Assembly: GCF_004795035.1 (NCBI RefSeq)
Contig: NZ_SSBK01000004.1
Location: forward strand, 248,001 to 312,000
Direction of reading: 5' to 3'
Length of the DNA stretch: 64,000 bases
Source: Streptomyces sp. A0958
GTDB taxonomy: Bacteria > Actinomycetota > Actinomycetes > Streptomycetales > Streptomycetaceae
Numbering within the stretch: the first letter of the stretch is position 1; every line of letters starts with the position of its first letter. Below the pieces are notes generated by a model that did not search any database, was not told the DNA's origin, and was given only the letters and a program-made list of their open reading frames with translations. Both the position numbers and the translations under genes were made by a program. Positions 30,106-52,773 of the stretch are shown in pieces.

Positions 30106-30324
30106 GTGGCCAATCCTTTCGATGACGAGTCGGGGCGGTTCGTGACGCTGGTGAATGGCGAGGGTCAGTACTCGCTGTGGCCCGCGCACATCGAGATCCC
30201 GGGCGGCTGGAGCGTCGGCGGCCCGGAAGGATCGCGGCAGGAGTGTCTCGACGCGATCGAGGCCGCGTGGACCGACATGCGGCCCGCCGGCCTGGTGCGG
30301 GCCATGGAGGTCGACGCCGGGTAG
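30106..30324 (+). CDS. MbtH-like protein
   Basis: 72 residues from GTG 30106, behind GGGGGAC. The whole family signature is present: NPFDDESGRFVTLVNGEGQYSLWP, PGGWSVGGPEGSRQECLDAIEAAWTDMRPAGL with the three invariant Trp. MbtH proteins bind adenylation domains and are needed for their activity or solubility. It lies 400 bp before the first synthetase on the same strand. Confidence 0.97.
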   Translation: MANPFDDESGRFVTLVNGEGQYSLWPAHIEIPGGWSVGGPEGSRQECLDAIEAAWTDMRPAGLVRAMEVDAG

Positions 30325-30724
30325 GGCGGGCTCAGGGGCTGTCGAGGGTCCGCAGACCACCCGGCCCGGGTCGGTCTCGCTACTCTCGCCTGATCCGATC
30401 GATAGTGCTCTCATCCGAGCAGAATCGATCAGGCGGGAGTAGTGATCGGTCGCACCTCGACCGAAAATGTTCACGCCGCCTTCATGCGGCTTTATCGAAT
30501 CATTGATGGACTGCCCAAGGGCATGTCCGCAATGCGCGAAGACAGTGGAGTTCCCTTCCGAACACCGGAACCGGTAGGTGCTCCGTCGGCGCCCGATGCC
30601 ATGGGCGGCGATGTCTCTCTTCGCTTTCACCCGCCCGTTGTCGGCGAAGGACGCCACACCGGCATGGTCGGCTTCGTCCTGCCCTCTTCCCCCCCGAAAA
30701 CTCTCCCCAAAGGTGTGTCCCGGC
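30325..30724. other. 400-bp gap between mbtH and the first synthetase
   Basis: The frame that continues into the synthetase has an ATG at 30578, but the sequence before 30725 is unlike coding sequence of the family and lacks a ribosome site. The gap holds the 30380-30442 inverted repeat. A separate promoter or attenuator for the 22-kb synthetase transcript may lie here. Confidence 0.5.
30380..30442. repeat. 16-bp inverted repeat upstream of the first synthetase
   Basis: Arms 30380-30395 and 30427-30442 are complementary at 15 of 16 positions and enclose 31 nt containing nested GATCGAT and ATCGATC motifs. It could be a regulator site or a hairpin acting in the transcript leader. Confidence 0.6.
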
Positions 30725-51100: not shown

Positions 51101-52773
51101 ACCGCCGCCTCGTCGCGTACACCGTTTCCGACCAGGACACACCCGACCCGGACTGGGCCGGCCTGCGCACCCACCTCGCCGCCGTCCTGCCCGACCACAT
51201 GGTCCCCGCCGCCCATGTCCGCCTCGACGCCCTCCCCGTCACCCCCAACGGCAAGACCGACCGGCGCGCCCTGCCCGCCCCCGGCAACCCGGTGGCGGCC
51301 GGCGGGCGGGCTCCCCGCACCGCACGTGAGCGCGCCCTGTGCGAAGTGTTCGCCCAGACGCTCGGCCTGCCCGAAGTGGGCGTCACCGACGACTTCTTCG
51401 CTCTGGGCGGCCACTCCCTGCTCGCCGTGACCCTGGCACGCCGGATCGGGGAGCGATGCGGCCGGCGCCCCTCCCTGCGGGCCCTGTTCGCGACGCCCAC
51501 CGTCGAGGGCGTCGACCGCCTGCTGGGCAGTGAGCCGGGGGAGGAGGAGCACGAGGACGCGGCCGCCCCGGACCTCGCCGCCGAGGTCGGGCTCGCCCCC
51601 GACATCACCGGCGCGCGCCGCGGCCTCGCCCAGCCGGACCCCGTGCGCCGGCCCGCACGCCCCGCCGCCCGGCCCCTGCTCACCGGCGCCTCCGGCTTCC
51701 TCGGCGCGTTCCTCCTGCGCGACCTCATCGAGGCCACGGACGGCCCCGTCGACTGCCTCGTACGGGCCGCGAGCCCCGACAGCGCGGCGCAACGGCTCCG
51801 GGCCAACCTGGAGCACTACGGACTGTGGCGCCCCCGGTACGCGGACCTGATCCACCCCGTCCCGGGCGACCTCGCCGCCCCCGGCCTCGGCCTCGCACCG
51901 GACGAGCGGACGGCTCTGGCCCGCCGCCTCGGCCCCGTCCTGCACAACGGGGCGCGGGTCAACTTCGCCGCCCCGTACGGCGATCTGCGCGCCCCCAACG
52001 TGGCCGGCACCGAGGAACTGCTGCGCCTCCTCGCCGACTCCGCCTCGCCCGGTATGCACTACATCTCCACCACCGGTGTGTACGCCCCGACGCGCGGCAC
52101 CGACCCCGCTCCCCTCACCGAGGCGTCCCCGACCGGCCCGGCGGCCGACCTGCCCGACGGATACGCCCAGAGCAAATGGGTCGCCGAGCAACTCGTCGGC
52201 CTGGCCCGGGACCGGGGGCTGCCGGTGACCGTCCACCGCCCCGGCCGTATCAGCGGCGACACCGCCACCGGCGCCTGCCAGGACCGCGACCTGCTGTGGC
52301 AGCTCATCAAGGGCTGCCTCCAGGCGGGCGCGGTGCCCGACCTGCCGCACGGGACGACCGACTGGGTGCCCGTGGACTACGTCAGCGCCGCGGTCGTCGC
52401 GCTCAGCGCGTCCGGCGAGGCCGAGGCGGAGACCTACCACTACACCAACCCGGACGCGCCGGCCCTGGACCGCGTCTTCGAGGTGGCGGGCGGCCTCGGC
52501 TACGAGTTGCGCACCGTGTCCCCCGAGGAGTGGAGGGCCCGCGTGGCGGAGCACCCCGACAACGCCGCGCAGTTGTTCCTCGGCGACGACGGGCAGGCCG
52601 GGAACGACGAGGCGGACCACCGCCGCTTCGACTCCCGCCGCACGGCCCGGGCCGCCGAAGCGGCGGGCGTTCGCCAACAGCCCCTCACCGACGACGTCCT
52701 GAGCCGCTATCTGACGTACTTCCAGGTCTCGGGCTTCCTGCCGACGACCCCCGGAGCGCGGCCCACGTCCTAG
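45190..52773 (+). CDS. Non-ribosomal peptide synthetase, two modules with terminal reductase: C-A-T, C-A-T-R
   Basis: 2527 residues from GTG 45190, which overlaps the TGA of the previous gene. C5 begins LEDVLPLTPLQAGMYFHAL with HHILFDGWS at 147, a DCL-type motif suited to a D-residue donor from the E domain before it. A5 TSGSTG near 625; T5 Ser 1014; C6 HHIAADG 1197; A6 TSGSTG near 1686; T6 Ser 2076; reductase domain from about 2163 with LLTGASGFLGAFLL (NADPH loop), ISTTGVYAP and Y-x(3)-K (YAQSK, Tyr 2325). No GxSxG thioesterase follows. Pocket residues by eye: A5 DAFFAGVTFK (as A1), A6 DAWTVAAVCK, matching Phe. The reductase releases the chain as an aldehyde, which may be further reduced. 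Confidence 0.97.
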   Translation: MNGFQLEDVLPLTPLQAGMYFHALYDSQAVDVYTAQFVFDIEGPVDVPALRAAIGGLLRRHANLRVGFLHEDLDEPVQAVAAEVPVPLEELDLTGPDAPDPDATPERLTAFLAADRTRRFDLATPPLMRFTLVRTAPARHRLVMTSHHILFDGWSLPLLVRELFELYAAGGDDSALPRVTPYRAYLVWLSQQDRTAALDAWAAALAGIETPTLLAGPGGADGPGSAELPETLVLDLDAATTHRLTETARAHRLTLNTLVQGAWGLLLGHLTGRPDVVFGATVSGRPPEIPGIESMVGLFINTVPVRLSPAPGETLAALLTRLQEEQGRLLGSQHVGLSDIRGVTDLDELFDTLVVFENYPMDAEALRTAQRGLPGLTVTGFSGTDAAHYPLTLTVAPGDTLRITFGYRAAVLDRQEVAHTLSRMRHLLTAMAQGLDGRADTAPVLLDSEREQLIAQGTGAGLPSGTTAVSVPEAVAEGARRHPDAVAVSGAGEQLTYGRLSDLADDLAGALTGLGTCAEDGVGILVARSAATVTTSLAALRAGAAYVPLDPRWPTERLNRVTEVAPLRVLIVDETTHTLPWVRQLGPETAVLTVDAAGRVLAGGPAAAGVLPKATGGRRLAYVMFTSGSTGLPKGVGVTHADVSALAAHRGWGDGAADAVLLHSAYVFDASTFELWAPLLNGGRVVVAPEGPLQPSVLRDLVTRYGVTAAFLTTALFNVLAETDPGSLGQLRLVAAGGEAAAPGVMQRLAADHPGTTVLHVYGPTETTTFATAHHVGPDDTPGGAAPIGRPLDGMRAYVLDAALRPVPPGAEGELYLAGPGVARGYLGRPGLTATRFVADPFDRAGGRMYRTGDLVRRGDDGSLRYVARADQQIKLRGHRIEPAEIETVLRDHPAVRAACVLVREDLPGDRTLTAYVVPAAGETPEPGLLAAHVGSLLPAYMVPAVIQPLDALPLTPNGKIDRAALPAPTGPRTAAGRAPRSAMEEILAGLFADVLGVPRVGTDDSFFALGGHSLLATRLVGRIRTALHTETDIRTLFEHPTVAALATALEGADGTTRPALVPQPRPATLPLSYAQQRLWFLHRLDGPSATYNIPLAVRIDGPLDADALCQAVADIIGRHAALRTLFPEGDDGPHQHITAPDDVLIPFAMEAVDEAKLRHRVAAATAEPIDIEHSLPLRATLLRLAPDAHVLILVVHHIAADGTSLAPLAHDLGAAYRARIRGEEPSWAPLPVDYADHTLWQRDLLGDEQDDDSLVCRQLTHWKHALDGLPEAIELPWDRPRPATSRHTGATLGFSVDRATARQVTELARTCGCSVFMVLQAALATVLSRHGAGDDIPLGTAVAGRTDEAATGLVGFFVNTLVLRTDLSGDPTFRELLGRVREFDLAAYAHQDVPFERLVELLNPARAQSHHPLFQTMLVLQNQASAAVDLPGLTVSGVPAEAEVSKFDLSFAFTETYDESGALDGLRATVDYATELFDAPTVHGLADRLALLLGAVTADPDRPVHTYDLLTPAEHRRLTVLGTGPAGDLPPATVPALFEEWARRTPDAPAVRDAHTTLTYGELDARADALARHLADRGVGPEDRVAVALPRTRHLVVALLAVLKSGAAYVPLDPDYPAKRLSYMLDDAGPRLLLTTPEIHHRLPANPVPHLYTDALATDELATGDRTPARVAAPAHPANPAYVIYTSGSTGLPKGVVVTHRGVRAMARTQSERLRVGPGSRVLHMASVSFDAAFWELCMGLLSGACLEIDARDALLPGPALAGLVRARGVTHLTIPPAALAVMPPGSLPTGITMVLAGEACPPALVHAWAKDRFLVNAYGPTETTVCATMSAFQHAQGPLAPDSSVPIGAPVDGTRVHVLDDRLAPVPPGVVGELYVSGEGVARGYLGRAALTASRFVADPFDRAGGRMYRTGDLVRWTTDGRLLYISRVDDQVKLRGFRIELGEIEAALTALPGVAAACVTVREDRPGDRRLVAYTVSDQDTPDPDWAGLRTHLAAVLPDHMVPAAHVRLDALPVTPNGKTDRRALPAPGNPVAAGGRAPRTARERALCEVFAQTLGLPEVGVTDDFFALGGHSLLAVTLARRIGERCGRRPSLRALFATPTVEGVDRLLGSEPGEEEHEDAAAPDLAAEVGLAPDITGARRGLAQPDPVRRPARPAARPLLTGASGFLGAFLLRDLIEATDGPVDCLVRAASPDSAAQRLRANLEHYGLWRPRYADLIHPVPGDLAAPGLGLAPDERTALARRLGPVLHNGARVNFAAPYGDLRAPNVAGTEELLRLLADSASPGMHYISTTGVYAPTRGTDPAPLTEASPTGPAADLPDGYAQSKWVAEQLVGLARDRGLPVTVHRPGRISGDTATGACQDRDLLWQLIKGCLQAGAVPDLPHGTTDWVPVDYVSAAVVALSASGEAEAETYHYTNPDAPALDRVFEVAGGLGYELRTVSPEEWRARVAEHPDNAAQLFLGDDGQAGNDEADHRRFDSRRTARAAEAAGVRQQPLTDDVLSRYLTYFQVSGFLPTTPGARPTS

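Follow-up and report, generated by a model that had tools for sequence, protein, structure and literature searches.

A three-gene nonribosomal peptide synthetase locus of Streptomyces sp. A0958 with a predicted N-acyl hexapeptide aldehyde product and a likely relationship to the flavopeptin system

Known peptide aldehyde systems and the locus

Flavopeptins are N-acyl peptide aldehydes from a nonribosomal peptide synthetase (NRPS) with a reductase (R) domain in Streptomyces sp. NRRL F-6652, as passages of five publications state between them (PMC8009326, PMC10548850, PMC4071589, PMC8949500, PMC7586950), and passages in three of these describe them as inhibitors of cysteine proteases and of the proteasome (PMC10548850, PMC8009326, PMC4071589). 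In this study, we analyzed an NRPS locus of Streptomyces sp. A0958, which is located at positions 30106-52773 of a stretch of 64,000 nucleotides of contig NZ_SSBK01000004.1 (positions 248,001 to 312,000; this whole stretch is called the window). The aldehyde warhead class, and with it an expected covalent inhibition of proteases or the proteasome, is common to the product predicted here and to tyropeptin, fellutamide B, and livipeptin. The tyropeptins are shorter peptides than the predicted hexapeptide, as are fellutamide B, livipeptin, and other peptide aldehydes. Also, the R domain family of the second NRPS of the locus is found in the synthetases for myxochelin (MxcG) and myxalamid (MxaA), the products of which end in alcohols or amines. 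Livipeptin is described in a passage of PMC10548850 as the product of an NRPS without a condensation (C) domain acting with a tRNA-utilizing enzyme.

For the locus of strain A0958, the best explanation, to which we assign a probability of roughly 0.8, is a three-gene, six-module NRPS with a starter C domain and a terminal R domain, which is likely orthologous to the flavopeptin synthetase and would make a medium-chain N-acyl-(Ile/Val)-Gln-(Ile/Val)-D-Gln-(Ile/Val)-phenylalaninal. The locus has the architecture of the flavopeptin family, namely a Streptomyces NRPS that ends in a reductase and is built for an N-acylated and reductively released peptide, with N-acylation and release being predicted from the domains. 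Literature searches on phenylalaninal and on lipopeptide or hexapeptide aldehydes, mostly at the level of titles, did not retrieve the exact predicted product.

Domain order and reductive release

The region contains three genes on the + strand, encoding an MbtH-like protein, NRPS1, and NRPS2 (Table 1). Its left border in an initial annotation of the window, 30106, turned out to be the start of the MbtH-like gene. In the first NRPS frame, Pfam detected five Condensation-family, four AMP-binding, and four carrier stretches, and in the second frame two, two, and two of these, respectively, followed by NAD_binding_4. The core motifs gave the same picture: HHxxxDG was present in six C domains and HHLAVDA (onward HHLAVDAVSW) in the epimerization (E) domain, YGPTE, YRTGDL, and NGKx(D/N)R occurred as six sets with one set per adenylation (A) domain, and the carrier (T) domains showed LGGHSL five times and LGGDSI once, the LGGDSI carrier directly preceding the E domain. 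The six-module order given in the initial annotation was thereby confirmed by Pfam, NCBIfam, and core motifs as Cs-A-T, C-A-T, C-A-T, C-A-T-E / C-A-T, C-A-T-R (Cs, starter C domain). Chance can be excluded, given the size of the frames, their lack of interruptions, and the occurrence of full-length relatives in other species.

The open frame of NRPS1 comprises 4871 codons (30578-45193), in which the ATG at 30725 is codon 50 and the likely start. Alignments began at the residue of this ATG in 20 of 32 relatives; since the query itself began there, codons further upstream lay outside this comparison. For NRPS2 (open frame 45175-52773), translation likely starts at the GTG at 45190, which overlaps the stop codon of NRPS1 by four bases. 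A negative GC skew was sustained across both NRPS genes (-0.10 to -0.24 at 32000-52000 of the window), which is probably a coding bias.

For the E domain, the closest relatives in the PDB were structures of PvdL, tyrocidine synthetase, and gramicidin S synthetase, and for the following C domain (C5) the C domains of PvdL, BacC, McyB, and TycB. C5 also carries LTPLQAGMYFHALYD, which we take to be a mark of the DCL type. Both the E domain after module 4 and the DCL type of C5, as annotated before, are thus in agreement with structural relatives and motifs.

The end of NRPS2 matched the thioester reductase domain of NCBIfam (TIGR01746) with 309.5 bits (cut-off 213.35). Its closest PDB relatives were 8v1x, with which the motifs could be aligned, and then MxaA, while no thioesterase family was detected in the Pfam scan of both NRPS frames. 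The NRPS ends in a thioester reductase instead of a thioesterase, in line with the earlier assignment. All 20 readable clusters of the comparison described below have kept the T-Y-K residues of the R domain together with its Rossmann motif for NAD(P)H binding.

A reduction by four electrons instead of two would give an N-acyl hexapeptide ending in phenylalaninol. MxaA, the second-best of the solved R relatives, is a four-electron enzyme known for alcohol formation, so an alcohol could also be formed by NRPS2. A review passage states that a second reduction of the aldehyde is general (PMC8949500); however, the same passage names the flavopeptins among the aldehyde products. Moreover, the flanks of the cluster showed no conserved aldehyde-reducing partner or tailoring gene over about 14 kb upstream in 20 relatives and about 10 kb downstream in 33 stretches, the downstream frames being pre-filtered by third-position GC. 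The alcohol is in our view an unlikely product, and release as an aldehyde is preferred.

A released aldehyde might also cyclise or be altered by other enzymes, and the final product would then be no protease inhibitor. Imines formed from R-released aldehydes are named for aureusimine and nostocyclopeptide in a passage of PMC8949500. For the present locus, however, a starter C domain points to an N-terminus that is blocked, which would prevent a head-to-tail imine, and the lack of a conserved tailoring gene in the stretches read also argues against later modification. Such a fate of the aldehyde is considered very improbable.

Predicted residues and acyl chain

For prediction of the residues, the pocket positions of the six A domains were anchored on motifs, using the GrsA numbering. 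In three pocket readings, position 278 was not filled by the pattern, and the printed stretches give Q, Q, and F. Based on signature tables, the six codes presumably stand for Ile/Val in A1, A3, and A5, Gln in A2 and A4, and Phe in A6 (Table 1). The predicted residue order is branched aliphatic-Gln-aliphatic-D-Gln-aliphatic-Phe, and the residue classes read by eye in the initial annotation were recovered with the motif-anchored codes.

The pockets were compared in 21 clusters (window and 20 relatives), of which 20 had six readable A domains; in the remaining cluster (L023), NRPS2 was missed by the motif filter, leaving no full set of six codes, and its two A domains were readable separately. 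The codes of A3 and A6 were identical in all 20 readable clusters including the window. Those of A1, A2, A4, and A5 showed changes at single positions in some of the clusters; for example, A5 reads DAFFAGATF in four of them, and A4 of L025 reads DAWQEGLID. In Streptomyces noursei, two positions of A5 were changed (DACFAGATF), and the reading DAWQGALID for A2 of L020 looks like a slip of the pattern.

The A domains were also compared with each other within clusters (19 of the 21 clusters; L013 and L043 were incomplete). No concerted evolution was seen in the window, where A1, A3, and A5 share 63-67% and A2 and A4 share 62% identity. In NRPS1 of S. noursei (L083/L028), A2 and A4 are 94% and A1 and A3 84% identical, and in NRPS1 of Streptantibioticus silvisoli (L084/L037), A1 and A3 are 92% identical; the remaining clusters gave 65-71% for A1-A3 and 57-66% for A2-A4. 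This suggests recent gene conversion between modules in the NRPS1 of these two distant relatives, with the reservation that L037 may reflect the draft assembly.

The first C domain (C1) has the motif HHIAVDG and was present as a starter C domain in all 32 relatives searched (two of these as split matches). Its closest PDB relatives were the 7c1k set, followed by C1 of the CDA synthetase, both of which are lipid-starting, so the loading of a lipid is likewise expected for C1. We identify the 7c1k set as the starter C domain of the rhizomide synthetase RzmA (RzmA-Cs), because Arg in one of its chain sequences and Ala in another match R148 and R148A of PMC7804268. According to passages of the same paper, the residue following HHxxxDGxG determines the acyl length in RzmA, and the exchange R148G led chiefly to C8 with little C10 (PMC7804268). 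This gate residue is Arg in RzmA (acetyl) and Met in CdaPS1 (C6), whereas C1 of the window has Gly; in the 21 clusters, Gly was found 19 times and Ala twice. Because of the Gly gate, a medium-length acyl chain (C8-C10) is predicted by analogy with RzmA R148G.

In the proposed pathway, C1 would load a fatty acyl group that primary metabolism supplies on coenzyme A or acyl carrier protein, as the neighbourhood of the cluster in distant relatives has no further recurring gene. The A domains would be aided by the MbtH-like protein, and an acyl tetrapeptide would be assembled on modules 1-4, with inversion of Gln4 by the E domain. The ends at which NRPS1 and NRPS2 meet resemble short docking segments, through which the acyl tetrapeptide would pass to module 5 and its DCL domain. 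Finally, a two-electron reduction of the Phe thioester by the R domain with NAD(P)H would yield the free aldehyde, which would bind covalently and reversibly to the catalytic Cys, Ser, or Thr residue of proteases or of the proteasome.

Table 1. Genes and selected domains of the NRPS locus, with positions in the window.
Feature	Position	Strand	Evidence
MbtH-like protein (A-domain partner)	30106..30324	+	Pfam PF03621, 81.9 bits, cut-off 27
NRPS1, Cs-A-T, C-A-T, C-A-T, C-A-T-E	30725..45193	+	Pfam, NCBIfam, core motifs
C1, starter (lipid-loading type) condensation domain	30782..32161	+	PF00668 match; PDB relatives; Gly gate
A1, pocket DAFFAGVTF, Ile/Val predicted	32210..33697	+	motifs, NCBIfam, pocket reading
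A2, pocket DAWQLGLID, Gln predicted	35522..36994	+	Pfam, NCBIfam, pocket reading
A3, pocket DAFFCGVTF, Ile/Val predicted	38690..40177	+	motifs, NCBIfam, pocket reading
A4, pocket DAWQAGLID, Gln predicted	41906..43363	+	NCBIfam, pocket reading
Epimerization domain, HHLAVDAVSW, D form of residue 4 predicted	43727..45097	+	motifs, PDB relatives
NRPS2, C-A-T, C-A-T-R	45190..52773	+	Pfam, NCBIfam, core motifs
C5, DCL-type condensation domain after E	45208..46548	+	LTPLQAGMYFHALYD in sequence; PDB relatives
A5, pocket DAFFAGVTF, Ile/Val predicted	46597..48087	+	NCBIfam, pocket reading
A6, pocket DAWTVAAVC, Phe predicted	49804..51273	+	Pfam, NCBIfam, pocket reading
R, thioester reductase domain, TGASGFLG and T-Y-K residues (ISTTG, YAQSK)	51676..52740	+	TIGR01746, PDB relatives

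Distribution, flavopeptin link and neighbourhood

In a search of 394 sampled genomes of the family from 17 genera (E up to 1e-120), relatives of the R domain were present in 19 genomes (own included) and 5 genera with identities of 59-100%; a genus sample gave 9 of 150 genomes (own included) at an identity of at least 65%. Since R relatives occur in these 19 genomes and related clusters share both the MbtH-like gene and the code pattern, the cluster is likely widespread and not new. The own genome (7.17 Mb in 112 contigs) contains further large NRPS frames at C58:56996-86354, C49:590-8236, and C26:118361-126921.

The flavopeptin producer NRRL F-6652 is reportedly closely related to S. flavogriseus ATCC 33331. 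NCBI lists S. pratensis ATCC 33331, which we take to be the same strain, as the shared ATCC number fits. Among the best 120 of 7313 matches to NRPS2, two full-length relatives labelled S. pratensis were 77-78% identical to the protein of the window, namely P0053 (cluster of 188 sequences, 78%) and P0067 (77%). The copy of S. papulosa NRRL B-16504 shares 98.1% identity with P0053, and in the genome of this strain, the R domain of the cluster is the sole TIGR01746 match over the cut-off. Because of this, any product that the S. pratensis lineage makes with an R-domain NRPS most likely comes from the orthologous cluster. A single R domain over the cut-off was also found in SirexAA-E, in three more of seven relatives' genomes, and in the own genome. 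Judged from these protein comparisons, the locus most likely represents the cluster of the flavopeptin family in a further species and its novelty is small, which indirectly supports the earlier suggestion of a flavopeptin relative that is not wholly new.

Besides the relationship to MxaA and the review statement given above, several points weigh against this explanation. The likeness to the flavopeptin NRPS is one by description and by the indirect link through S. pratensis and S. papulosa, and 2 of the 7 relatives' genomes (L012, L005) contain a second R domain over the cut-off. These two points would fit a family separate from flavopeptin that has the architecture alone in common and differs in peptide sequence or acyl group. 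In S. papulosa, with its near-identical S. pratensis-labelled protein, and in SirexAA-E, however, the R domain of the cluster is the only one over the cut-off, and we regard a separate family as improbable. With respect to the predicted structure, the aliphatic pocket code leaves Ile and Val undistinguished, and the gate-residue rule was tested in RzmA and HolA only, making the predicted acyl length an extrapolation from two enzymes. Furthermore, one stop codon was located inside the R-domain match in 3 of the 19 family genomes (G303, G342, G281), which suggests decay or sequencing errors in these frames. Taken with these points, the synthetase of an acyl hexapeptide aldehyde, likely orthologous to that of flavopeptin, is still our preferred explanation.

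Upstream of NRPS1, a relative of the MbtH-like protein was found in all 20 relatives read (64-99% identity). The FemAB-like gene at 23446, a short gene at 24893, and the LigT-like gene at 28940 each occurred in 5 of these 20, which were the nearest ones, the MFS gene at 21838 in 4, and the SDR genes at 25433 and 27692 in 1 and 2, respectively. Recurring only in the nearest relatives (at most 5 of 20), these upstream neighbours were ruled out as cluster members; they mark a shared chromosomal site and not the cluster. The 5 of 20 relatives that have the FemAB-family gene (PF02388) are also those that have the short gene (24893-25420, without Pfam match), with 79-93% identity. The SDR gene at 25433-27010 adjoins this pair, yet it was kept in only one relative. 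Downstream, no family recurred in more than 5 of the 33 stretches, and those few stretches were from near relatives. A DUF1838 protein (53481-54953) and a protein of 457 amino acids without Pfam match (55446-56819) are located near NRPS2 in only 3 and 4, respectively, of 65 relatives' loci. The cluster is therefore a three-gene unit, which is set in other surroundings in more distant relatives. The genome was also searched for a duplicated proteasome subunit as a means of self-resistance, and it has only one adjacent pair of proteasome-family genes.

Concerning its role, the stand-alone mbtH-nrps1-nrps2 unit might make an endogenous, signal-like inhibitor, which would restrain secreted proteases or the 20S proteasome of the producer during development, and not a weapon. 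The unit has a near-invariant acyl-X-Gln-X-D-Gln-X-Phe-al code, it is found in about 5% of the sampled family genomes, and no resistance, export, or tailoring neighbour was conserved beside it in the stretches read; even so, we consider this role quite unlikely.

The locus reveals no new mechanism. If the preferred explanation is true, a described class of inhibitors of the proteasome and of cysteine proteases would be tied to a compact three-gene unit, the reductase of which is present in five genera of one family. Also, its starter C domain, in which the gate is naturally Gly, is test material for the acyl-length rule, and every strain carrying the unit would come with a concrete mass prediction for its product.

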